A stretch of DNA of 64,000 nucleotides from Bdellovibrionales bacterium GWA2_49_15 (GTDB taxonomy: Bacteria > Bdellovibrionota > Bacteriovoracia > Bacteriovoracales > Bacteriovoracaceae). Location of the stretch: the NCBI GenBank assembly GCA_001769855.1, contig MEPP01000027.1, positions 21,072 to 85,071 of the forward strand. The letters are read 5' to 3'. A program made the translations under genes and the position numbers. Positions 3 through 12,633 of the stretch are shown in pieces. Under the pieces are notes generated by a model. The model ran no database searches. It was not told the DNA's origin and saw nothing but the letters and a program-made list of their open reading frames with translations. Position 1 is the first letter of the stretch, and each line of letters opens with the position of its first letter.

Positions 3-1538
3 ACGACTGTAAGGGTGCCAACGCCTCAGGTGACACTGGCAAATCTCAAAACGGTGTTTGCTAAAACGGCCGGTAAGCGTGGCGTATTTGAGGTTTCTCA
101 AGACCCGATCATTATGCCCCAGGCCGCCTATGCTTCTGCCTATAACAGCGCTACATTCCCCACCAATGCTCTAGGACAGTATGTTCAGATAGCTGAGAAC
201 TCGAAGACGTTTAAGCCAATCAATGCAGCTGGTATTCTTCAGCCGCCTGTCACCATCCCATTGCAGCCCAAGGCCATGCATGACGAGATGGGGGGAGTCT
301 ACGACGATTACGGACGCATGAGCGGGATGCTTGGATTATCCACAAGTGTGACGTCGACTGCTGCTAATTTTGTGGCCTATGGTTATGCAAGTCCGCCCGT
401 CGATTTTTTCAAGGAGCCAATCTCTGGGGCTCAAATCGGATCGCTTGATGACGGCACCCAAATTTGGAGGATTGTTCATAACGGAGTGGATACCCACACC
501 ATTCATACTCATTTATTCACTTCACAGGTCATTAATCGCGTTTCGATGGATGGGGGAATGTTGCCTCCTGATGCCAATGAACTCGGCTGGAAAGATACCA
601 TTAGGGTCAATCCTCTAGAACATACCATCATTGCCATGAAACCTATGATACCGGTGGCCCCATTTGCAGTCCCCAACAGTATCCGACTGATTGATCCGAC
701 CATGCCAAGTGGGGTCCCGCTCACGGAACCGCCACCAGCAGGATGGTTTACCCCAGGTGGAGTGAGCATTCCACAAGTCCTCAACCATATGGTGAACTAT
801 GGCCAGGAACATGTGTGGCACTGTCATATTCTTGCTCATGAGGAGATGGACATGATGCACTCCTTGTCACTGGCGATTTCACCTGCGAAACCCTTCATCA
901 CCTCGGCCACACGAATTGGTGGCGGTAACAATCGAAGTATTGTTTTAAATTGGAAAGATTCCACCGTTCCATCACTTCCCGGTGCAGGTTTCGTGAATAC
1001 CACTAGCTTTGAGGTTCAAAGAGCAACCAACGTTAGCTTCACCAATAATCTTATGACTATCCCGCTGGGAGGACTGCTCTTACCGCCTGTACTCACCTAT
1101 ACTGATCCTATCGGCAGCCCGAACCAGGTACTCTATTACCGGGTCAATTCTGTTAATACGGTTGGTGATGTGGCCACGGCCGGTTTTCCAACGACAGTGC
1201 TTAGATCTGTCTCTAATACCGTAGCGTATCCTTCCTCGGCTCCTTTAGTCGCTCCGGCCGCTCCCAGTCCTTTGACGGCAGTAAATTTGGTTCAAAACAA
1301 TAGGCGAAGAGTAACGCTCAATTGGACCAATGTCGCCAACGAGAGTGGATACACAGTTCAGTATACGACTGACTCCACTTATACGAGTGGACTTGTGACG
1401 ACCGTTCTTGGTGCTAACGTCAACACCATGACGACCGGAAACTTGCTCAAAAACACGACGTACTATTTTAGAGTCCAAGCATTTAACAGTGCTGATCCAT
1501 CAGCGTGGGTCACCACCTCAATCACCACAGCTCCCTAG
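3..1538 (+). CDS. Exported multicopper oxidase, C-terminal part, with fibronectin-III tail (5' partial)
   Basis: The reading frame is open to the window edge, so the gene starts upstream. Numbering from the GTG at 15, residues 155-166 carry an HNGVDTHTIHTH stretch. Residues 269-280 carry HCHILAHEEMDM, the usual type 1/type 3 copper signature of multicopper oxidases, with the Cys ligand at about 270 and a candidate axial Met at 280. From about 290 to 507 the protein looks like two fibronectin type III repeats (for example the LNWTNVANESGYTVQY stretch), which suggests a secreted or surface enzyme. The family oxidises metals, phenols or bilirubin and reduces O2 to water; the substrate cannot be read from this fragment. 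Large enzymes of this sort include metal (Mn/Fe) oxidases, which would fit the multihaem cytochromes downstream, but that link is inference. A hairpin follows the stop codon. Confidence 0.85.
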   Translation, partial: TTVRVPTPQVTLANLKTVFAKTAGKRGVFEVSQDPIIMPQAAYASAYNSATFPTNALGQYVQIAENSKTFKPINAAGILQPPVTIPLQPKAMHDEMGGVYDDYGRMSGMLGLSTSVTSTAANFVAYGYASPPVDFFKEPISGAQIGSLDDGTQIWRIVHNGVDTHTIHTHLFTSQVINRVSMDGGMLPPDANELGWKDTIRVNPLEHTIIAMKPMIPVAPFAVPNSIRLIDPTMPSGVPLTEPPPAGWFTPGGVSIPQVLNHMVNYGQEHVWHCHILAHEEMDMMHSLSLAISPAKPFITSATRIGGGNNRSIVLNWKDSTVPSLPGAGFVNTTSFEVQRATNVSFTNNLMTIPLGGLLLPPVLTYTDPIGSPNQVLYYRVNSVNTVGDVATAGFPTTVLRSVSNTVAYPSSAPLVAPAAPSPLTAVNLVQNNRRRVTLNWTNVANESGYTVQYTTDSTYTSGLVTTVLGANVNTMTTGNLLKNTTYYFRVQAFNSADPSAWVTTSITTAP

Positions 1539-2785: not shown

Positions 2786-3610
2786 ATGATGAAGGTCATC
2801 AGCATTTTATCGCTGCTTATTTTAGTTGTGTACTATGGCATCCATTCTGAGAAAAAAGAGCCCCGTGCAACGAACATGGAATTTAAGGGCGAGTTTGTGA
2901 AGGAGGAAATCACGCCAGTGTCTGTGGAGAGAAAAATTGCCAATACTCCCAGGATAACCGTGCAGGAACTAAAAATCCCAAGAGAAATATTAGAGCGCAT
3001 TTCTCTTTCAGAAAAAGAAAAATTACTTTTGCAGGCGCTGATTATTCGCAACGAGTGGGATGAGAAAGTGGCGGCAATTCTGATTTTGAGCAGATTTATG
3101 AATCTCTTTGATGTGGTCAATTATGTTCGACAGCTTAAATCAGAAATAAAAAGTAATCCCACAGAATCGCTGAAAAGCCTTCAGCTGACCTGGAGTAATT
3201 TACTCGATGGTAATTTTATAGTTGAACGGGCCAATTGTATATTGCTGGCCTATGATCTCAAGATAGATAGGGCGATTGTTAACCAATTTGCTCTGGATGA
3301 GTTATTGAACCCCAGAAATGTCCAAGAGCTGATTGATAACAATCCCGCAGGAGTGAGTGATGACGCTGTCGACGTTGCCGATTCTGAGCAAGAACATCTG
3401 GCCGTTTCCAATGAGTGTGCCTTTAAAAAAGTATATGCCGTGTATTTGCAATCCTCGGCGGCCGATCCCGATGAAGTTTTAGATGGCGCTGTTAAGATTC
3501 TCGAGATGCATGAAAATAGGGTTTTGAAGAGTGAGCTGATAAAAAGTTTTCAGGTTGCATTCCCCCAGCAACAGCAGAAGCTATGGCAAATTCTAAGGCA
3601 TGAGAGTTAG
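2786..3610 (+). CDS. Membrane-anchored protein of unknown function at head of cytochrome operon
   Basis: I do not recognise the family. The 274-residue product starts with a single hydrophobic segment (residues 2-18, VISILSLLILVVYYGI), followed directly by charged residues. It is therefore probably an inner-membrane anchored or exported protein. The remainder is mostly helical and charged, with many Leu/Ile/Glu/Lys residues, and has only two Cys and no haem motif. The stop lies 9 bp before the next gene, the ferredoxin/FAD oxidoreductase, so the two are almost certainly co-transcribed from the TTGACA/TAAGAT promoter at 2667. By position it may be an accessory or assembly factor of the electron-transfer genes, but nothing in its sequence proves this. 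Confidence 0.7.
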   Translation: MMKVISILSLLILVVYYGIHSEKKEPRATNMEFKGEFVKEEITPVSVERKIANTPRITVQELKIPREILERISLSEKEKLLLQALIIRNEWDEKVAAILILSRFMNLFDVVNYVRQLKSEIKSNPTESLKSLQLTWSNLLDGNFIVERANCILLAYDLKIDRAIVNQFALDELLNPRNVQELIDNNPAGVSDDAVDVADSEQEHLAVSNECAFKKVYAVYLQSSAADPDEVLDGAVKILEMHENRVLKSELIKSFQVAFPQQQQKLWQILRHES

Positions 3611-3619
3611 GTCACAAAC

Positions 3620-4993
3620 ATGAAAAGTCTATTTATAGATTTGCTTGCAGATTATATTGGTCATTTCGGTTTTCTTCTTATGATCGCGCTTGCCGTAGTC
3701 AATGTCGCCAAGAAGAATAGAAAAAATAAAAATGCCGTGCGAACTTTGGTTAAAAATCAAAATAGCAACTTAAATGAACCGGTCAGTTTGCATCCCGAGA
3801 TTAACCCTGCTCTGTGTGTAGGGTGTGGCTCGTGCGTAAATGCCTGTCCCGAGGGTGAAATCTTACAGCTCATTAATCATAAATCATCTCTCGTCTCTCC
3901 TACCAAATGCGTCGGTCACGGTGCCTGTGAGCAGTCGTGCCCATTCGGTGCCATCGACTTGGTATTTGGAACAAAAACGCGTGGCATGGAAATTCCCAGA
4001 ATCAGTCCAGACTTTGAAACAAATATTCCCGGCCTCTATATCGCCGGAGAGTTAGGCGGGATGGGGCTGATTCGAAATGCCGTCAAGCAAGGAAGGCTGG
4101 CGGCGTATCATGCCATCTCCAAACTAAAAAATGTCAAGCGTACCACTGATGTGGATATTTTCATTGTTGGTGCTGGTGCCGCCGGTTTTAGCGCGACCCT
4201 GGCGGCGAAAGAACATCATTGCACTTACCGAGTCATTGATCAGAATACTTTTGGAGGAACAATTTATAATTTCCCCCGACAAAAAGTTGTTACCAGCCAT
4301 CCGCTCGATCTCTCCCTCGCCGGTCAGGTGAAATTTAAAAGTAATATTGTTCAAAAAGAAAAGCTATTAGAAATCTTCAGTCAAATCGTGGAGCGGAACC
4401 AGCTAGTCATCAGTGAGAAAGAAAATTTCATCAGCTTGAAAAAACTTGGCAATGACATATTTTCCATAGAAACCAGCAAGGGCGTGTACACGGCCAAAAA
4501 AGTCATCCTTTGTATGGGGGTCAGAGGCACCCCGAGACGTTTAGGGCTGGCGAATGAGGATTTGCCTAAGGTTGCGTATAGCTTAATTGATCCGAGCGAT
4601 TACCAGAACTCCGCTATCGCCATTGTTGGCGGTGGTAATGCTGGCCTGGAGGCCACTCAATATTTAAGTAAACAATCTTTGAAAAACAAGGTGCACTTAA
4701 TTGTCCGGGGTGGTCCGGAAGATGCTTTTAGTCGGGCGAATGAGCAGAATCAGAAACTAATTCGTGAGTTGGAAAAGAAAAAACAAATCACCATCCATTA
4801 TAATTCAGCCGTTCAGACCATTGAGAAAGATTTCATTTTGGTAAAAAAATTCAGTCACGATCTTAAATTGCAAAATAATTTTCTTTTTATTTTTACCGGT
4901 GCGGAAGTTCCTTTTAAATTCCTGATGTCTTTGGGAATCATTATAGATAAATCGTATGGAGAGAAGAGAAAATTAAGTATGGCCCAATACTGA
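3620..4993 (+). CDS. Membrane-tethered ferredoxin/FAD-NAD(P) oxidoreductase
   Basis: The 457-residue protein has, in order: an N-terminal hydrophobic segment (about 14-30); a ferredoxin-like module with one complete cluster motif (CVGCGSCVNACP, about residue 65) and a second motif in which the second Cys is His (CVGHGACEQSCP); a stretch with PGLYIAGELGGMGLIRNAV; an FAD-binding Rossmann motif IFIVGAGAAGFSA (about 175); and an NAD(P)-binding motif IAIVGGGNAGLEATQYL (about 335). The IAGELGGMG stretch resembles the C-terminal FAD-contact motif of thioredoxin-reductase-type flavoproteins, yet it precedes the FAD Rossmann fold, so the module looks permuted. The expected role is cytoplasmic electron transfer between NAD(P)H, flavin and Fe-S clusters at the inner membrane. 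It sits 9 bp after the preceding gene and just before the 37-haem cytochrome, suggesting the electron entry or exit point of that system. Confidence 0.8.
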   Translation: MKSLFIDLLADYIGHFGFLLMIALAVVNVAKKNRKNKNAVRTLVKNQNSNLNEPVSLHPEINPALCVGCGSCVNACPEGEILQLINHKSSLVSPTKCVGHGACEQSCPFGAIDLVFGTKTRGMEIPRISPDFETNIPGLYIAGELGGMGLIRNAVKQGRLAAYHAISKLKNVKRTTDVDIFIVGAGAAGFSATLAAKEHHCTYRVIDQNTFGGTIYNFPRQKVVTSHPLDLSLAGQVKFKSNIVQKEKLLEIFSQIVERNQLVISEKENFISLKKLGNDIFSIETSKGVYTAKKVILCMGVRGTPRRLGLANEDLPKVAYSLIDPSDYQNSAIAIVGGGNAGLEATQYLSKQSLKNKVHLIVRGGPEDAFSRANEQNQKLIRELEKKKQITIHYNSAVQTIEKDFILVKKFSHDLKLQNNFLFIFTGAEVPFKFLMSLGIIIDKSYGEKRKLSMAQY

Positions 4994-5013
4994 TTCAATC
5001 TTTGGTTTTAAAA

Positions 5014-7899
5014 ATGGAAAAAAATAATTATGTGCTACTCATCCTCTTGCTACTGTATGGTTGCATGGGGAACGATTTTACCATCTCCGCACCCAAGGCC
5101 CCCGGCGATGCTTCAAGTGGTCCTACTTTTGAGCATGCTCTTTTTCTTGCCACTAATTGCGTTGAATGCCATGCCAAGAATCGTCCAGTAGCGACGCCCG
5201 TGCATGGCGATGGTTATGATTGTAGCGCTTGCCATACTTCTTCACTTGACGGCCAAGGAGTGCGAAGCTGGAAGAATCTCGCCAATTTTAATCACTCACC
5301 CGCGCCAACTGCCTGCCTGAGTTGCCATCAAAAGGCCCGACCGCCCAGCACCTCTCCTCATCTCTCAGGACAATGGGGGGAGCTGCAGGATTGCGTTTCC
5401 TGCCACACTTATCCTCAGTGGACACCCACCCAATTTGATCATGCCAAACCACTGGTCAGCTGCATCGAATGCCATCGTATTTTAACCAAAGACGACAGAC
5501 CAGCGCCGGCATCGGGGCATCCCACTTCTTTTTATAATCAGATCGACTGTGTTCAGTGCCATACCAATTCTGACAATAACAAAAAATGGAGCAACCTCCT
5601 GTTTGACCATCGAACTCATTCACCCACCTCGAAGAGCTGTATGAGGTGTCATGAGATCAAGAGACCGCTTGCTCACCAGATTAATCCCGTCATCATTGGA
5701 ATGCTGAATGCTGATTGTGCCTCTTGCCACACTTCGACGAGTGATTGGAAGCAGGTTGCGGCCTTTGATCATGAGCTCATGAGGCCCACGACATGCATGG
5801 GCTGTCATGCTTCAAAGATTCCCTCAAATCAGGTCGCCCATCCTTCAGTGATTGGAAACTATTCTAAAATTGATTGCGCTCAATGCCACACTTACGATCT
5901 GGCAAACAGCGCAAGGTCATGGAGCAAAATTATATTTAATCATTATACCCACCTACCGTCGCCTGTCGGCTGTCGCGAATGTCATCAAATTGTAAATAAC
6001 TCTTTGCCTGCCAACGCATCTCATGCGGTGGCCAGTCGATCGGCCAATGACTGCGTTTCCTGCCATAGATATGATGCTGTTAAGTTCTGGACTAATTTTT
6101 CCGTTTTCCAGCATGGAATCATTGGCGCTACAGAACGCTGTGATTCCTGTCATAAGTCAGCGGTGAAAACTTTAACTTCTAAACCGCTCACCCATATTAC
6201 GACGGCCTTCGATTGTAATTCATGTCATAGTTCCAGTGCTTGGAAGCCTGCATCGTACACTCATTCCAATAAAAATACTGATTGCGTAAGCTGCCATAAT
6301 GGAACAATCGCGAGCGGGAAAACCCCTGCGCACGTAAGTACCGTTGCTCAGTGTAGTACCTGTCACACCAATATCGCGTGGAAACCGGCGACCTTTGTGC
6401 ACGCAACGACTGACACAAATTGTTTAACTTGCCACAACGGCACAACCGCGACGGGGAAAACCACCACCCACGTTCCGACAACGGCCCAGTGTAGTACCTG
6501 TCACTCAAAAACAGCGTGGAAGCCTGCAATCTACGTGCACGCAACAACCGATACAAATTGTTTAACTTGTCACAACGGCACAACCGCGACGGGCAAAACA
6601 ACCACCCACGTTCCGACCGTGGCCCAGTGTAGCATCTGTCACACTAATGCGGCCTGGAAACCGGCGACCTTTGTGCATGCAACAACCGATACAAATTGCT
6701 TAACTTGTCACAACGGAACAACGGCGACGGGGAAAACCACCACCCACGTTCCGACCGTGGCCCAGTGTAGTACCTGTCACTCAAAAACGGCCTGGAAACC
6801 AGCGACCTTTGTGCATGCAACAACCGATACAAATTGCTTAACTTGTCACAACGGCACAACCGCGACGGGGAAAACAACCACCCACGTTCCGACCGTGGCC
6901 CAGTGTAGTACCTGTCACACCAACGCGGCCTGGAAACCAGCGACCTTTGTGCACGCAACAACCGATACAAATTGTTTATCTTGCCACAACAGCACAACGG
7001 CGACGGGGAAAACCACCACCCACGTTCCGACCGTGGCCCAGTGTAGTACCTGTCACTCAAAAACGGCCTGGAAACCAGCGACCTTTGTGCACGCAACGAC
7101 TGACACAAATTGTTTATCTTGTCACAACGGCACAATTGCGACGGGGAAAACCACAACCCACGTTCCGACGACCGCACAATGTAGCATCTGTCACACTAAT
7201 GCGGCCTGGAAACCAGCAACCTATGTGCACGCAACGACTGACACAAATTGCTTAACTTGTCACAACGGCACAACGGCTACGGGGAAAACAACCACCCACG
7301 TTCCGACGACCGCACAATGTAGCATCTGTCACACCAATGCGGCATGGATACCGGCAACCTATACACACGCAACCGCGGACACAAATTGTTTGATCTGTCA
7401 CAACGGAACAACAGCAACAGGCAAACCTACTACCCACGTGGCGACAACCGCCCAGTGTAGTAATTGCCACACAAAAACGGCGTGGACACCGGCAGGTTAT
7501 ACACACGCAGTGACTGATACAAACTGTACCAGCTGTCATAACGGATCAGCAGCGACAGCCAGACCGGCGTCACATACTCTGCCTCTCGCTAATCATCAAT
7601 GTAGCGCATGTCACAGTCAGATTTCATTTTTGACGGTTGCTTTTAATACGACTTATAAGCACTCTACATCGGGGGGATTGCTACCAAAGGGAACCGCGTA
7701 TCACAAATCGCAAACCTCATGTACAAAGTGTCACCTAACGACAACCGATAGTGTTAAGTACAACGATACGTTGGCGAATTCAGTTCTTTCTCCAAAATGT
7801 GCTGGCTGTCATACTTCGAAGTTCGGGAATAAGCATGGCCAAACGACCATCACGACGAACAAGAATTGTCTGAGTTGCCATTCGTATAACGGCTGGTGA
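5014..7899 (+). CDS. Giant multihaem c-type cytochrome, 37 CXXCH motifs, predicted lipoprotein
   Basis: I count 37 CXXCH haem-attachment motifs in about 961 residues. The likely start is the ATG at 5014 (an in-frame TTG lies at 5002); it gives a signal peptide ending LLLLYGC, a lipobox with Cys17 as the lipidation site, so the mature protein is probably attached to a membrane. Residues up to about 395 carry 13 irregular haem motifs. These are followed by ten nearly identical 46-residue units, each with two haems (CSTCH...W-PA...H...CLTCHNGTTATGKTTTHV), then four more haems to the C-terminus. Conserved His residues between motifs (FVHA, THVP) are candidate distal haem ligands. Such proteins act as long haem wires; homology to a named subfamily cannot be settled here. 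It ends 2 bp from the stop of the convergent 30-haem cytochrome. Confidence 0.93.
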   Translation: MEKNNYVLLILLLLYGCMGNDFTISAPKAPGDASSGPTFEHALFLATNCVECHAKNRPVATPVHGDGYDCSACHTSSLDGQGVRSWKNLANFNHSPAPTACLSCHQKARPPSTSPHLSGQWGELQDCVSCHTYPQWTPTQFDHAKPLVSCIECHRILTKDDRPAPASGHPTSFYNQIDCVQCHTNSDNNKKWSNLLFDHRTHSPTSKSCMRCHEIKRPLAHQINPVIIGMLNADCASCHTSTSDWKQVAAFDHELMRPTTCMGCHASKIPSNQVAHPSVIGNYSKIDCAQCHTYDLANSARSWSKIIFNHYTHLPSPVGCRECHQIVNNSLPANASHAVASRSANDCVSCHRYDAVKFWTNFSVFQHGIIGATERCDSCHKSAVKTLTSKPLTHITTAFDCNSCHSSSAWKPASYTHSNKNTDCVSCHNGTIASGKTPAHVSTVAQCSTCHTNIAWKPATFVHATTDTNCLTCHNGTTATGKTTTHVPTTAQCSTCHSKTAWKPAIYVHATTDTNCLTCHNGTTATGKTTTHVPTVAQCSICHTNAAWKPATFVHATTDTNCLTCHNGTTATGKTTTHVPTVAQCSTCHSKTAWKPATFVHATTDTNCLTCHNGTTATGKTTTHVPTVAQCSTCHTNAAWKPATFVHATTDTNCLSCHNSTTATGKTTTHVPTVAQCSTCHSKTAWKPATFVHATTDTNCLSCHNGTIATGKTTTHVPTTAQCSICHTNAAWKPATYVHATTDTNCLTCHNGTTATGKTTTHVPTTAQCSICHTNAAWIPATYTHATADTNCLICHNGTTATGKPTTHVATTAQCSNCHTKTAWTPAGYTHAVTDTNCTSCHNGSAATARPASHTLPLANHQCSACHSQISFLTVAFNTTYKHSTSGGLLPKGTAYHKSQTSCTKCHLTTTDSVKYNDTLANSVLSPKCAGCHTSKFGNKHGQTTITTNKNCLSCHSYNGW
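6206..7585 (+). repeat. Ten tandem 138-bp repeats inside the 37-haem cytochrome gene
   Basis: The unit length is directly visible: the GCC/GCT-CAGTGTAG start recurs at 6346, 6484 and 6622, exactly 138 bp apart, and continues similarly. Each unit codes for 46 residues and two haem motifs. Inner units are nearly identical at DNA level and the outer ones more diverged, as expected from unequal crossing-over. Unit edges are approximate. Confidence 0.9.
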
Positions 7900-7901
7900 G
7901 A

Positions 7902-10400
7902 TTACTTAAAGATGAACTGATTGTGACAGGCCGAGCAGTCCTCGAAACCAGCAAGGTTATGGTTGAGTATCACCGACTTGGATCGATCTTTATAGTGGCA
8001 TGAGACACATTCACTGGACTTCCCTTGATAGACTCCATCACGATGACATTGATCACAACTGAGCACTCGATGACTTCCCCTCAGAGGGAAAGCGGTCAGA
8101 GAGTGTTTGAAGGTTGTGACCTCCCAAAAATCTTGCTTGTGGCATTCTTTGCAGTAGGGAAGGCGTCCGCTATGTTTGTCATCCTTCTGGTGGCAGAGTA
8201 AGCATGCATCCCCGATGCCGCCCAAACGCCGTTGATCCTTGTGACATTCGTCGCACCTGAGCGTGTAGTGAACTCCGGTCAAAAGAAAATCTTTGTGAAA
8301 TTTTTGATCGACTTTCCATTTTTTCGTTTCTTCGGAGTGACATTCAGTGCAGCTATTTCCAAAGTCACCCTTGTGGACATCTTTGTGACATCCTTTGCAA
8401 TTGTTGGTGAGCATGCCATCAAAAATAAATTTATGAATGGGATTGTTGGGGGGATTGCTGAAGAACTCTTCCGTCTTAACATGACATTTGGTGCATTCCG
8501 TCGTTTTATGTTGTCCGATCAGGAGGAAGCTGGTGGTTCCATGGTCAATATTTTTGATTGGTCGAAAGGCCTGATTGGTATGGCAGGTGGCACAGGGTTT
8601 TCTCAAGCTCTCTTTTGTAAATTGATTGAGGTGAACATTCTTATGACAGGCCTCGCATAATCCTTTTTCATCATCATAAAATTGAAAAATTCCTTTTGGG
8701 CGTACGTTAATCCGTTTATAGGTAATAAACTCCTTAGTGGGCCTATGACATTTTTCGCACGAAACTTTGGGGTCGAGATGTTTTCCGTCAAGGGGAAAAC
8801 TGGTTTTGCTATGATCAAATTTCTTGAGGTTCTTAAAGGCATTGCTATCGTGACACTCCATGCATGATTTGCTGGAAAACTTTTCGCTAAATTGCTTCTT
8901 GTGAACATTGGTATGGCACGCCTCACAGAACTGCTTGTCGTCGTACCTGAACTTATAGATCTTATTTTTTTCATTCTTATGGCAGGTGATACATTGGGTT
9001 TTGATATGTGCACCTTCGAGCGGAAATCGGGTATCAATATTGTGATTAAACTTGCCGGCCTTTCTCGTCTCTTTCCATGACGAGGTAACGTGGCAAGCGA
9101 CGCACTTTTGCAGAAGATTTTTCTGGGAGAAGGTTTTCAAGTGTGGGCCTTTGTGACAAATAGCACAGTTATCTTTTTCCAACTCCTGGAATCGGTAAAT
9201 TCTTGGTGACTCCTTATTCGCAAGATCAGTATTGAGGTGGCACTTGATACAGGTGAGTTCAGTGTGCTTCCCATCGACATTAAAACGTGTATCGAGCCTA
9301 TGATTAAAATTGGGAGTTTCCTTGAAGCTCCGCTCATTGTGGCAGGCCTGACATTGCGATAATTTTCCAAATCTGGTCGAGGTAAGACGATCAAAGAGAT
9401 GGATGTCTTTATGGCAGGAAATGCAGGCCGCTTGCAGGCCTTTCCATTGATAAGGGATGACCTTGGTCGGGCCACTCAACATTTTATAACTTGTTTCGGC
9501 AGGGAGAGGTGCCTGCTTGTGGCACTTGACACAGGTAATTTCCAAATGCTTTGCATTGATGCGCAGGCCAGTGACGGCATGTTTGAAAGTCGGGATCTTC
9601 CACGAACCCTGCTCATGACATTTTGAGCATTGCCCATCGTTGTATTTTTGCGAGAGGGTGCCAAGGTGAAAAGGCCTGTGGCAAGATAAGCAATTTTCAG
9701 TTTTTAAATTTTCCCACTTATATATAGCAGGACCGATCTTTTCGCCTTCAGGAGTATGGCACTTACCGCAGGACATCTCGACATGCTTGCCCTCCAGCTT
9801 AAATTTTGAGCTAACAAAATGATCAAAATTGGAGGTGCCCTTCCACTTAATTTCAGAGTGACACGCGTTGCAATCTTTAGTTGCGATCTCGCCTTTAAAT
9901 AAATGCACGTCCTGTTTTTTATGGCAGCTGGCGCAGCTTGCGATTAGTCCGGCAAAACGGACATCGTCCTGCCTGATGGCCTTCTTGGTTCTCTTGTCTT
10001 TGTGGCAATCCACACATTTGATCGTCTTATGTTTGCCATACAGAATATGCCCGGTCAGCTCGTGATTAAATTTTTCACCATCGACGAGAGTTGAATCGAA
10101 CTCTCGGCCTTTATGATCACTATGGCATTCAATGCAATGTTTGCTCGCAGAAGCTAAACCATGAAATGACTTTTTACGATCTATGGATTGCTTAATTTCT
10201 TTATGGCAACTTAAACACTGTGAACTCGGCACTCCCTTTCCGGCATTATGACAGGATAAGCAATCAACTTTTTCCAGGTTCTTATGTCCTTCAATCAATG
10301 GGCCCGGTGCCAGGAGCTTATTCAGCAGGCCTTGCTTAACTTCTTCTGCCAGGGTGACCGAAAAAAATAAATAAATAAAAATGAATCCTATTTTTTTCAT
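7902..10400 (-). CDS. Giant multihaem c-type cytochrome, 30 CXXCH motifs, periplasmic
   Basis: The 832-residue product starts with a signal peptide (MKKIGFIFIYLFFSVTLA, cleavage before EE) and has 30 CXXCH motifs by my count. Unlike the neighbouring 37-haem protein, the motifs are spread evenly over the whole length. They fall in a loose repeat of the form F-H-h--F-L-GkH---C--CH (for example FPLDGKHLD and FLLIGQHKT before a haem motif). The His in GKH is a likely distal ligand of a neighbouring haem. It is Lys-rich throughout. The start codon overlaps the stop of the upstream beta-barrel gene (ATGA), so the two are translationally coupled and probably act as a porin-cytochrome unit. Expected location is the periplasm or threaded through the barrel; this is inference. 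Confidence 0.93.
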   Translation of the reverse strand: MKKIGFIFIYLFFSVTLAEEVKQGLLNKLLAPGPLIEGHKNLEKVDCLSCHNAGKGVPSSQCLSCHKEIKQSIDRKKSFHGLASASKHCIECHSDHKGREFDSTLVDGEKFNHELTGHILYGKHKTIKCVDCHKDKRTKKAIRQDDVRFAGLIASCASCHKKQDVHLFKGEIATKDCNACHSEIKWKGTSNFDHFVSSKFKLEGKHVEMSCGKCHTPEGEKIGPAIYKWENLKTENCLSCHRPFHLGTLSQKYNDGQCSKCHEQGSWKIPTFKHAVTGLRINAKHLEITCVKCHKQAPLPAETSYKMLSGPTKVIPYQWKGLQAACISCHKDIHLFDRLTSTRFGKLSQCQACHNERSFKETPNFNHRLDTRFNVDGKHTELTCIKCHLNTDLANKESPRIYRFQELEKDNCAICHKGPHLKTFSQKNLLQKCVACHVTSSWKETRKAGKFNHNIDTRFPLEGAHIKTQCITCHKNEKNKIYKFRYDDKQFCEACHTNVHKKQFSEKFSSKSCMECHDSNAFKNLKKFDHSKTSFPLDGKHLDPKVSCEKCHRPTKEFITYKRINVRPKGIFQFYDDEKGLCEACHKNVHLNQFTKESLRKPCATCHTNQAFRPIKNIDHGTTSFLLIGQHKTTECTKCHVKTEEFFSNPPNNPIHKFIFDGMLTNNCKGCHKDVHKGDFGNSCTECHSEETKKWKVDQKFHKDFLLTGVHYTLRCDECHKDQRRLGGIGDACLLCHQKDDKHSGRLPYCKECHKQDFWEVTTFKHSLTAFPLRGSHRVLSCDQCHRDGVYQGKSSECVSCHYKDRSKSVILNHNLAGFEDCSACHNQFIFK

Positions 10401-11719
10401 AGCTGCCCCATGGGGGGCGAACCCTCACGAATAGGAGCTTGACCGCCCTGACCAAAACGATAGGAGATCTTTAACATGATACTGAAAATGGAAACATAGT
10501 TATCCCGAATATTTTGAATCGAAATAATGCCAAACAAGCTTCGATTGAAAAACTTTGTGTAGCTACCTTCACTGATATATGCGATATTCGGCTTTTGGGA
10601 GGCCCGCTGCTCAAATTGAACATCCTGATTGATTGATAATTCTCTAAAATTATTCGAATGCAATAGGCCAAGGCCCAAGAGCAGGTCATTGGAAATGAAA
10701 TTCTTTTTCACGCCTAGATTCGCCGTGCCGCTGATTTCATCCTTGATAATTCTTGGGATGAGGGCCCCAAACTTGAGCTCTGCCATGTTTTTCTTGTCCA
10801 CCTCTCGCAGGCCAACTGACAGTTTCGTTTCGTAAGAGGTCTGGCCATAATCGCTCGGGCTCCGTATGGAAAGTGAAGACTGATGGTAGCGCGAGGATGG
10901 AAGGGTTTCCCTGATATCCTGAACCCTAACGTAGTGGAGAGAGTCGATGGTCGAGAAGGATGCCCGCAGCTTGTATCTGTTGCTAAAATTCGTGGCGTAC
11001 GTCGACCAAAAATTCTGGACATAGACATGGGGTAAAAAATCCAAATACAGAATGGATGAAAAATTTTGTCCGTCGTCCGATTGCAAATTGGTATTGTTAT
11101 AATAGTAGAATCGATCCACCTCAGTTTTGTAAACCTGGCGCACCAATGCATTGATTGAAAAGAAATATCTTTCCCAGCTTTTGCCTTTGTTTTCTAAAGT
11201 GAAGTGCCCTCCATAGGCAGTGACGTCTCTGTTAATTCCTGTGTCTTGTGCTAGCTGTGGATTGAGACCATAGAAAAGTGAAAATTTTGCGGACAGGCCA
11301 AGAAGATTTTTTCTTAGCCCGAAATCAAGTCCATCTAAATAGATTGCACCGGCCTGAGGAAGTGGGAATCTGCCCACTGAAAAATCGACTTCATTACTCT
11401 CTGCTGGTTTGTGAAAACTAAATTGATGCAGCTGGAGCTTGTTTTTTTCCGTTAAGGTTTGTCTTTCTCTGTCCATCTTATCGAAGAAATTTTCTTTATC
11501 GCGTACATCAAGCGTGAAACCGGCCTTGTTCCAGATGAGATCATCAAAGTTCAAATATAACCGCTCGGATAATATGGCAACATCATTGTACCGATCGACT
11601 TGCGAGTCCCTGAAAACCTCTTTAGAGATAAAGGCCCCTGAAATAAATCGGCCAGAGTAACCGGCGTAGGAATTACTCAAAAAAAGAAATGTGATAAAGG
11701 CAACTAAGAAATTGATCAA
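10397..11719 (-). CDS. Outer-membrane beta-barrel partner of the 30-haem cytochrome
   Basis: The 440-residue protein begins at a TTG codon with a signal peptide (INFLVAFITFLFLSNSYA, cleavage before GYS). It then alternates short hydrophobic/aromatic strands with polar turns rich in Tyr, Phe, Asn and Arg, which is typical of a beta-barrel of around 20 strands. There is no haem motif. Its TGA stop overlaps the start of the 30-haem cytochrome by 4 bp. This resembles the pairing of MtrB/PioB/OmbB-type porins with multihaem cytochromes in known extracellular electron-transfer conduits, but I cannot confirm membership of any of those families by eye. Its start faces the cytochrome b-like gene across a 71-bp gap that holds a perfect inverted repeat. 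Confidence 0.75.
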   Translation of the reverse strand: MINFLVAFITFLFLSNSYAGYSGRFISGAFISKEVFRDSQVDRYNDVAILSERLYLNFDDLIWNKAGFTLDVRDKENFFDKMDRERQTLTEKNKLQLHQFSFHKPAESNEVDFSVGRFPLPQAGAIYLDGLDFGLRKNLLGLSAKFSLFYGLNPQLAQDTGINRDVTAYGGHFTLENKGKSWERYFFSINALVRQVYKTEVDRFYYYNNTNLQSDDGQNFSSILYLDFLPHVYVQNFWSTYATNFSNRYKLRASFSTIDSLHYVRVQDIRETLPSSRYHQSSLSIRSPSDYGQTSYETKLSVGLREVDKKNMAELKFGALIPRIIKDEISGTANLGVKKNFISNDLLLGLGLLHSNNFRELSINQDVQFEQRASQKPNIAYISEGSYTKFFNRSLFGIISIQNIRDNYVSIFSIMLKISYRFGQGGQAPIREGSPPMGQL

Positions 11720-11741
11720 TTAGACATCTGCATTTGATTAT

Positions 11742-11756
11742 AGTTTAATGTAAACT
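11742..11756. promoter_or_regulatory. Perfect inverted repeat in divergent promoter region
   Basis: AGTTTA-ATG-TAAACT is a perfect 6-bp inverted repeat with a 3-bp spacer, in the 71-bp gap between the porin gene (minus) and the cytochrome b-like gene (plus). It is placed to act as an operator shared by both transcripts. Confidence 0.4.
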
Positions 11757-11790
11757 GATTCGAAGTGATGAACACAATCCGAAGTATATT

Positions 11791-12633
11791 ATGAAGCTCA
11801 CCGTTTACAAATTAATTTATGTGACCATCAGTTTTTTTTTAGCATACGAATATGCCGTTTTAAACGGATTCTTTTTGTCAGAAAGCTTTATCGCGAAGGC
11901 TTTGATCATCTTTGCGCCCCAAAATAAGATAAATCTAAGTCCCGCTCCCGGATATCCGCTGAGTTTTTTACTCGGTTGCCTGGGCTTTAGTCTGTTACTT
12001 TTGATGAATGTATATTCGCTAAGAAAAAGAAGCGGTCTATTTAAAAGGTTCGGGCCTCTCTCCGCATGGCTGGAATTTCATATTTTTTGCGGAATCCTTG
12101 GGACGATATTAATTATCTTTCATTGTAACTTTAAGGTGCACGGCTTGGTTTCGATCAGCTTCTGGAGCATGATTATTTCTTCCACCAGTGGCATCTTTGG
12201 CAAGTACGTCTATGTACAAACGCTTCAAAAGAAAGAAGAAATTAAAAATTATATTTCGACTTTGAAAGATGAATTTATTCAAAGACATGCAACGAAATTC
12301 ACCCCAGATGATTTTGTACTGATTTTTCAGCATGCCTTTAAGGCCGCAGGTGTCAGTGATAATGTAAATAATCCTTTTATAGCCTTCTTTTCTTCGGTCA
12401 AGGCCGAAGCCATGCTGCTTTTCACAAACCCTGCAAAGCGCTTTGGCCTGGATAAGAAAGAAGGTGAATTTCTGAAAATACTTGGAAGAGAAAACCGGCG
12501 GGCGGTCCTGCTCGAACCTTTCAAACTCCTACTTGGCTACTGGCACTCCTTTCATTTTCCTTTTGCGATTTTTATGTATCTTGTCGCCTTTATTCATATT
12601 GCCGTCGCTTTGCTCTTTCGAGTCACGCATTAG
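11791..12633 (+). CDS. Integral membrane dihaem cytochrome b-like protein
   Basis: The 280-residue protein has about five hydrophobic helices (roughly 7-28, 53-73, 92-112, 120-140 and 248-275). Two of them carry paired His residues exactly 14 positions apart: H97/H111 and H255/H269. This spacing is that of the bis-His haem b ligands in bc1-type cytochrome b, so a dihaem quinol-oxidising or quinone-reducing subunit is likely. A soluble, charged loop of about 100 residues lies between the helix pairs. Extra His at 117 and 252 are also near the membrane edges. It is divergent from the porin/30-haem cytochrome pair and could link the quinone pool to periplasmic haems. The family name is not certain; the haem assignment rests on the His pattern. 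Confidence 0.7.
   Translation: MKLTVYKLIYVTISFFLAYEYAVLNGFFLSESFIAKALIIFAPQNKINLSPAPGYPLSFLLGCLGFSLLLLMNVYSLRKRSGLFKRFGPLSAWLEFHIFCGILGTILIIFHCNFKVHGLVSISFWSMIISSTSGIFGKYVYVQTLQKKEEIKNYISTLKDEFIQRHATKFTPDDFVLIFQHAFKAAGVSDNVNNPFIAFFSSVKAEAMLLFTNPAKRFGLDKKEGEFLKILGRENRRAVLLEPFKLLLGYWHSFHFPFAIFMYLVAFIHIAVALLFRVTH

Follow-up and report, generated by a model that had tools for sequence, protein, structure and literature searches.

Genes at the locus

The window analysed here is the 64-kb stretch G000:C27:21072-85071, from contig C27 of the genome of Bdellovibrionales bacterium GWA2_49_15 (G000; assembly of 4.86 Mb in 32 contigs). Between positions 3620 and 12633 it holds five genes that we think likely to encode a conduit for extracellular electron transfer (EET). 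In order, they encode a flavoprotein with iron-sulfur (Fe-S) motifs, a lipoprotein with 37 CXXCH motifs, an exported cytochrome with 30 CXXCH motifs, an outer-membrane protein and a cytochrome b, as listed in Table 1. The 30-CXXCH gene is convergent to the 37-CXXCH gene and overlaps the barrel gene, the barrel stop and the cytochrome start sharing the letters ATGA, while the cytochrome b gene is divergent from this barrel-cytochrome pair. Every other frame longer than 80 residues in the window is free of CXXCH, and the 67 motifs in two adjacent frames are therefore not a chance accumulation. An earlier sequence-only reading of this DNA had proposed these parts, with their positions, CXXCH counts, ATGA overlap and two pairs of histidines 14 residues apart in the cytochrome b, and all of these are confirmed from the frames.

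That reading also took the DNA to come from a Bdellovibrionota-type genome, which is borne out by the nearest relatives and by a tree. The nearest named relative of the cytochrome b is from a Bdellovibrionales metagenome-assembled genome (MAG) (72-74% identity), followed by MAGs labelled Bacteriovoracaceae and Bdellovibrio, and in the tree the window sequence is nested, with full support, in a group of MAGs bearing these three labels. The named relatives are nearly all MAGs, and the data therefore point to no cultured host.

Table 1. Features of the locus, in window coordinates
Feature	Position	Strand	Basis
Inner-membrane-anchored Fe-S flavoprotein, 457 residues	3620..4993	+	Pfam, alignment A4 (24 sequences), PDB matches to YpdA/TrxR, hydropathy
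37-CXXCH lipoprotein cytochrome, 961 residues	5014..7899	+	Lipobox, motif count, Cytochrome_C7 match
Tandem repeat within the 37-haem gene, 138 bp, 8.3 copies, 87% matches	6349..7490	+	Tandem Repeats Finder
30-CXXCH exported cytochrome, 832 residues, signal peptide	7902..10400	-	Motif count and layout
Outer-membrane β-barrel, 440 residues, signal peptide, no Cys, TTG start	10397..11719	-	AlphaFold2, Foldseek, alignment A2
Divergent intergenic region, 71 bp, separating the cytochrome b gene from the barrel-cytochrome pair	11720..11790	.	Coordinates only
Cytochrome b, 280 residues	11791..12633	+	His pairs, AlphaFold2 model, weak DUF4405 match, charge distribution

The barrel and its 30-haem partner

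The structure of the barrel was predicted with AlphaFold2 from 21 sequences, giving a mean predicted local distance difference test score (pLDDT) of 80.9, a predicted template-modelling score (pTM) of 0.71, and about 22 membrane strands after the signal helix. A Foldseek search of the PDB with this model returned matches at probability 1.00 to MOMP, Occ-family porins, AlgE and the ushers FimD and PapC, so that the check for a non-porin fold ended in a predicted outer-membrane barrel. Its sequence has no match in Pfam, NCBIfam or PDB. Because the fold matches barrels and the sequence matches none, we consider it to be an outer-membrane barrel of a family outside these three databases.

Likeness to MtrCAB had been suggested in role and not in obvious sequence, and the family models agree with this. 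The MtrB_PioB models (PF11854/TIGR03509) match neither the window barrel nor any of the 21 barrels scanned, whereas an MtrB encoded elsewhere in G000 matches PF11854 at 4e-47; this positive control in the same genome makes the distinction from MtrCAB firmer. Scores fell well short of the cut-offs for decahaem MtrA (TIGR03508, 81.9 bits against 192.2, for a protein with 30 haems), for the OmcA/MtrC surface cytochromes (TIGR03507, 77.6 against 209.3), and for ExtN and ExtO (28.8 and 28.6 against 200).

The 30-haem protein is laid out as ten trihaem units of 63-94 residues each. It has 63 histidines, 30 of them proximal, and the remaining 33 would suffice for bis-His ligation of every haem. The corresponding cytochromes of relatives have 21, 24, 27, 30 or 33 haems, a multiple of three in 28/28 complete copies including that of the window (copies cut by a contig end or split between frames were excluded; a few near-identical pairs are included, making the independent number slightly lower). 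We therefore conclude that the length of the cytochrome has changed by whole trihaem units, and it has done so while the barrel stayed at about 440-480 residues. In one relative, G093 (L058/L080), the gene is broken into frames of 11 and 20 haems, by sequencing error or decay. We propose that the 30-haem protein lies partly inside the barrel and extends from it into the periplasm. MtrA spans 80 Å with ten haems (PMC7198977), and by extrapolation a chain of 30 that kept its 8 Å per haem would be about 240 Å long.

The 37-haem lipoprotein

The frame of the 37-CXXCH protein opens at TTG 5002 as well, but ATG 5014 is the likelier start and gives MEKNNYVLLILLLLYGC, with the lipobox LLYGC, in which Met follows the Cys. 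From this signal the protein is probably located at the outer-membrane surface. It contains 77 histidines, 37 proximal and 40 others. Cytochromes of 4-45 haems occupy a similar position in relatives. The gene contains a tandem repeat whose 138-bp unit encodes a 46-residue dihaem unit, with a haem spacing of 23 residues that recurs, and the exact haem count could consequently depend on the assembly. Such a repeat is a possible route to rapid change in haem number, or else an assembly hazard.

The cytochrome b

The two histidine pairs of the cytochrome b are His97/His111 and His255/His269, and all four residues are invariant in 36 homologues from several phyla. The AlphaFold2 model (pLDDT 91.6) has five long hydrophobic or amphipathic helices (3-24, 56-80, 90-111, 119-143 and 241-275), with the four histidines in long helices and a soluble helical domain at 148-239. 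The positive charge following helix 2 and the large charged domain indicate the cytoplasmic side, and accordingly place His97 and His255 towards the cytoplasm and His111 and His269 towards the periplasm. From the residue pattern the protein would hold two stacked b haems, ligated by His97-His255 and His111-His269, which together would span the inner membrane.

Family assignments gave little more than leads. Among the 36 members, matches below threshold were found to DUF4405 (22/36), cytochrome b561 (5/36) and Ferric_reduct (5/36), and a scan against NCBIfam gave noise only. A search of PDB gave nothing with an E-value of 0.001 or lower, and no fold in common with any haem b protein of known structure was found; a Foldseek search with the model gave no significant match, which speaks neither for nor against haem binding.

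The flavoprotein

An N-terminal transmembrane helix is predicted from hydropathy at about residues 12-30 of the flavoprotein, followed by Lys/Arg. The protein matches Pyr_redox_3 (7.9e-36) and Fer4 in Pfam, as expected for an oxidoreductase of the flavin adenine dinucleotide (FAD)/NAD(P) type, and carries an FAD motif GxGxxG at about 184-189 and an NAD(P) motif GGGNAG at about 338-343. The ferredoxin motifs consist of Cys 66/69/72/76 and of Cys 97/103/107 with His100, the last near-invariant in alignment A4 and placed where a fourth Cys is expected. In describing the protein as a membrane-tethered ferredoxin/FAD oxidoreductase, the sequence-only reading was right about the anchor and the FAD domain; the second Fe-S motif, with three Cys and one His, departs from it. 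Because the eighth expected ligand is His100 and not Cys, the presence of two [4Fe-4S] clusters is uncertain, and the second cluster may be His-ligated or of the 3Fe-4S type.

The flavoprotein resembles YpdA and thioredoxin reductase in both PDB and family-model matches; however, it scores 134.8 bits against a cut-off of 339.9 and by this measure falls outside that family. The seven Cys of the Fe-S motifs are the only invariant ones in alignment A4, and there is no conserved dithiol or CXXC in the flavin domain, so that reduction of thiols by this protein is unlikely. The segment at about 128-170, after the ferredoxin part, aligns with the FAD-closing segment that usually ends thioredoxin reductases (13 matches, all to flavoproteins of the superfamily, best E 0.015). 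Since this segment here precedes the FAD motif, giving the order ferredoxin part, FAD-closing segment, FAD motif, the flavin domain is circularly permuted. In G060 (L072/L154) the flavoprotein gene lies in two frames, by sequencing error or decay.

Conservation as a unit

One set of 369 Bdellovibrionota genomes was searched with each of three profiles, those for the barrel (A2), the cytochrome b (A3) and the flavoprotein (A4). Strong matches were found in 28 genomes for the barrel, 27 for the flavoprotein and 27 for the cytochrome b, and 26 genomes have all three. The hypergeometric p for the overlap is about 1e-37 to 1e-40 when genomes are treated as independent draws, and relatedness raises the true value, though relatedness would hardly yield such exclusivity across many families. 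Two genomes have the barrel with only one of the other two parts: G301 (720 contigs, 80% complete) lacks the flavoprotein, and G114 lacks the cytochrome b. The distribution is patchy: G002, the third member of the genus of the window and 99% complete, is without the module.

Synteny, suggested earlier as a check, also holds. A multihaem cytochrome lies directly downstream in 32/33 distinct barrel genes, the remaining one being cut by a contig end, so that every barrel with sequence beyond it has a large cytochrome next; the 4-bp overlap is present in 19 of the 33. Among the 25 loci L070-L094, the flavoprotein gene is no more than four genes from the cytochrome b gene in 23, and the contigs of the other two end early. 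A second multihaem cytochrome, with 4 to 45 haems, is usually found beside the cytochrome b or the flavoprotein in these loci. At least 10 of the 25 also contain a pair of genes for about 600 and 550 residues, the second with the tryptophan-rich WGRFWGWDPKETWALI motif of CcsA. The pair resembles a ResB-family (PF05140) gene and its neighbour on contig C31 of G000, and given this similarity and the CcsA motif we identify it as CcsBA, of cytochrome c maturation System II. We conclude that the five genes form a real conserved module. The checks that the earlier reading named as able to refute it turned up nothing against it.

Related arrangements occur in other phyla. In Acidobacteriota, Calditrichota and Nitrospirota, the cytochrome b gene is followed directly by cytochromes of 20-53 haems, and in MAGs of Acidobacteriota and Zixibacteria the barrel and flavoprotein occur together with multihaem cytochromes. 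The barrel profile has weak but significant similarity (E 2e-7 to 4e-4) to barrels adjoining 20-46-haem cytochromes in MAGs of the latter two phyla.

Some loci depart from the common arrangement. In L100, L102, L104, L110 and L113 (Acidobacteriota), the cytochrome b, or a match to its pattern, is followed directly by a single cytochrome of 37-53 CXXCH, with no recognised barrel of the present family nearby. L111, titled Bifidobacterium breve, has the cytochrome b and a 23-haem cytochrome and groups with Acidobacteriota, and is a mislabelled or mixed MAG. Contig C21 of G165 (L176) carries a second copy of the barrel, a 21-haem cytochrome, the flavoprotein and an 8-haem lipoprotein, with no cytochrome b; and G280:C37:3183-3565 has only fragments of cytochrome b, possibly from a decaying module.

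A proposed route for electrons and its alternatives

Geobacter conduits are recognised by three elements, namely a periplasmic multihaem cytochrome, an outer-membrane barrel and a redox lipoprotein (PMC6148476). All three have counterparts here, in the 30-CXXCH protein with its signal peptide, the barrel coupled to it, and the 37-CXXCH protein with its lipobox, whose location is predicted from sequence. We therefore regard the locus as probably a porin-cytochrome conduit for EET that is fed by an Fe-S flavoprotein and a dihaem cytochrome b of its own. On this interpretation, the flavoprotein at the cytoplasmic face would take electrons from NAD(P)H or reduced ferredoxin and pass them to the b haem near the cytoplasm and on to that near the periplasm, across the inner membrane. 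The chain of 30 haems would accept them in the periplasm, with one end sheathed by the 22-strand barrel and so insulated through the outer membrane, and the 37-haem lipoprotein would be the surface terminal, meeting metal oxides, electrodes, humics or partner cells.

Several points weigh against this. The case rests on computation. The barrel was modelled with neither haem nor partner, at a pTM of 0.71, and its Foldseek matches have TM-scores of no more than 0.2-0.5. Searches of PDB gave no homologue of known structure for the barrel, the cytochrome b or the 30-haem protein. Haem binding by the cytochrome b is predicted only from histidine spacing, and outer-membrane placement of the 37-haem protein from its lipobox. 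The cytochrome b stands by itself in L097, and the components are separated in L088 and L089. Finally, the G000 assembly is 5.1% contaminated, yet every one of the module's nearest relatives is from Bdellovibrionota.

We put forward more tentatively, as a proposal that could well be wrong, that the module represents a new and widespread family of conduits, in which the Fe-S flavoprotein and dihaem cytochrome b would drive electrons from cytosolic NAD(P)H or ferredoxin straight into a 30-haem wire spanning the periplasm and outer membrane, by-passing the quinone pool and soluble carriers. It is rather unlikely, though a serious alternative, that the conduit is an ordinary quinol-dependent one, with the cytochrome b as a quinol dehydrogenase in the role of CbcL, ImcH or CymA and the flavoprotein involved only indirectly. 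Dihaem b proteins often bind quinones, which counts for this alternative. So does the fact that the flavoprotein is often not seen near the cytochrome b in loci of the Acidobacteriota type, and the best known Gram-negative conduit is fed by menaquinol via CymA (PMC7198977). Within the phylum, however, the flavoprotein occurs only in genomes that have the barrel, and all barrel genomes but one have it; furthermore, its gene still adjoins that of the cytochrome b in loci whose barrel gene is in another place or missing from the contig (L083, L086, L088, L089). Both observations count against the quinol-dependent alternative.

An inward direction is improbable. The conduit would then resemble PioAB, taking electrons from Fe(II) or a partner cell and delivering them to NAD(P)+ or ferredoxin; the wire is reversible in principle, and the NAD(P) and ferredoxin motifs could allow the flavoprotein to act as acceptor. 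Outward flow is downhill, whereas by established bioenergetics electrons moving to NAD(P)+ through b haems alone would have to overcome both the difference in redox potential and the membrane potential.

We give the same low probability to the barrel being a solute porin and the cytochromes a periplasmic capacitor or a soluble oxyanion reductase, with no electrons crossing the outer membrane. The best Foldseek matches are indeed ordinary porins such as MOMP, and ExtI, a comparable barrel of Geobacter, is tied to selenite and tellurite reduction (PMC5877670). Against a solute porin stand the fixed pairing of barrel and cytochrome, usually with a 4-bp overlap, the additional cytochrome of surface lipoprotein type, and a haem number that varies by trihaem units behind a barrel of nearly constant size.

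It is very unlikely that the cytochrome b and flavoprotein serve cytochrome c maturation, supplying reductant for haem or CXXCH thiols and leaving only the barrel and the 30- and 37-haem proteins as the conduit. CcsBA genes adjoin the cytochrome b in many relatives, and the flavoprotein is thioredoxin-reductase-like; but its flavin domain has no conserved CXXC, the pair is absent from about 340 other genomes of the phylum although maturation is needed more widely, and in G000 the ResB-family gene is on another contig.

Lastly, there is scarcely any likelihood that the module is a member of MtrCAB, PioAB or MtoAB diverged past recognition: the roles are the same, but the matches to the PF22113 MtrC/MtrF domain and the sub-threshold matches to TIGR03508 are driven by haem repeats, 0/21 barrels match MtrB_PioB, the decahaem models are far under cut-off, the barrel has about 22 strands and not 26, and G000 has a true mtrAB pair as well.

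MtrAB in the same genome and phylum

This mtrA-mtrB pair shares a contig with the module and lies about 75 kb further to the right (G000 C27:114375-117510; L160:9376-12510). Its decahaem DmsE/MtrA-type protein is over the TIGR03508 cut-off at 229 bits, and its MtrB is the positive control described above. By sequence, G000 appears to hold two unrelated outer-membrane conduits. MtrB was found in 12/369 genomes, six of which have the module too, and a strong MtrB match is absent in 22/28 of the module-bearing genomes.

MtrAB was reported in 2026 in magnetotactic Bdellovibrionota (PMC13200544), and EET potential in the phylum is thus already known. The earlier suggestion that a conduit would be unusual in Bdellovibrionota consequently stands in part: the module is undescribed in the literature that we found, but EET genes as such have precedents in that report and in the MtrB distribution above. 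Literature searches on multihaem or EET loci in Bdellovibrionota gave, besides that report, papers in which the module does not appear, and since subscription journals and preprints were mostly uncovered this is weak evidence of novelty.

The genome has many more multihaem cytochrome genes, with 2 to 17 CXXCH, on contigs C31, C14, C7, C1, C8, C18 and C32 (L162-L171). The cluster on C31 has genes for 7, 10, 10 and 11 haems adjoining CcsBA.

Neighbouring genes

Two neighbours were considered as members of the module and rejected. The gene at 2786-3610 (274 residues) lies 9 bp ahead of the flavoprotein gene, but a homologue is absent from the locus of every relative. The glutamyl-tRNA reductase gene at 1489-2622 did not turn up among the neighbours in relatives; it is divergent and HemA-like, scores far under the NCBIfam cut-offs, and lies near haem-rich genes. 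The protein encoded at window positions 15-1538 combines Cu-oxidase_2 (multicopper oxidase) and fibronectin III domains; these positions hold its C-terminal part, and its start seems to lie to the left of the window.

Significance and comparison with known systems

Electrons for EET usually enter at the inner membrane from quinol, through proteins whose genes lie away from those of the outer-membrane conduit. If our interpretation is correct, a whole wire from cytosol to outside is encoded in one locus. A locus with both ends, kept across several families of Bdellovibrionota and related to loci of Acidobacteriota and further phyla, would account for the way in which uncultured kin of predatory bacteria pass electrons to and from minerals. 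The profiles for the barrel, cytochrome b and flavoprotein provide a marker for conduits that MtrB-based searches miss, and the variation by whole trihaem units offers a natural series for relating wire length to periplasm width.

The module shares with MtrCAB of Shewanella, and with PioAB and MtoAB, a barrel-sheathed periplasmic multihaem cytochrome, a surface multihaem lipoprotein and bis-His haems. With its 26 strands MtrB exceeds the roughly 22 of the present barrel, and the MtrA wire has 10 haems over 80 Å (PMC7198977), against 30 haems arranged as trihaem units here; in addition, the module has no match to these families and has its own cytochrome b and flavoprotein. MtrAB of the magnetotactic Bdellovibrionota (PMC13200544) is likewise an outer-membrane conduit from the same phylum, but is of the true MtrA/MtrB family, the type found at the second locus of G000.

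The Geobacter conduits extABCD, extEFG, extHIJKL and ombB-omaB-omcB have the same three elements (PMC6148476). They differ, as judged from their descriptions, in having periplasmic cytochromes of 5 to 15 haems and no described Fe-S flavoprotein. In the larger cluster extHIJKLMNOPQS, a barrel and a cytochrome b (ExtP) are likewise grouped with several multihaem cytochromes (PMC5877670), but the cluster includes a rhodanese, a Rieske protein and a selenocysteine cytochrome. OetABI of the sulfate-reducing partners of anaerobic methanotrophs (ANME) also has a periplasmic cytochrome, a barrel and an extracellular lipoprotein cytochrome (PMC10553843), while its named core, by description, is without a cytochrome b or flavoprotein.

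Two further parallels concern the components. The linear repeats of c7-type trihaem domains recall the Geobacter cytochromes of the GSU1996 type (TIGR04257). GSU1996 itself is dodecahaem and is not known to pair with a barrel, whereas here 7 to 11 trihaem units stand behind a barrel. At the inner membrane, the arrangement would follow the plan of NADPH oxidases and ferric reductases, in which a cytosolic NAD(P)H-FAD part feeds two b haems held by two helices. It differs in that Ferric_reduct matches only 5/36 of the cytochrome b members (best E 0.0065), and in that the flavoprotein is separate, YpdA/TrxR-like and equipped with ferredoxin motifs. Overall, the module would belong to a functional class that is already known, with components that are new and a feed of its own at the inner membrane.

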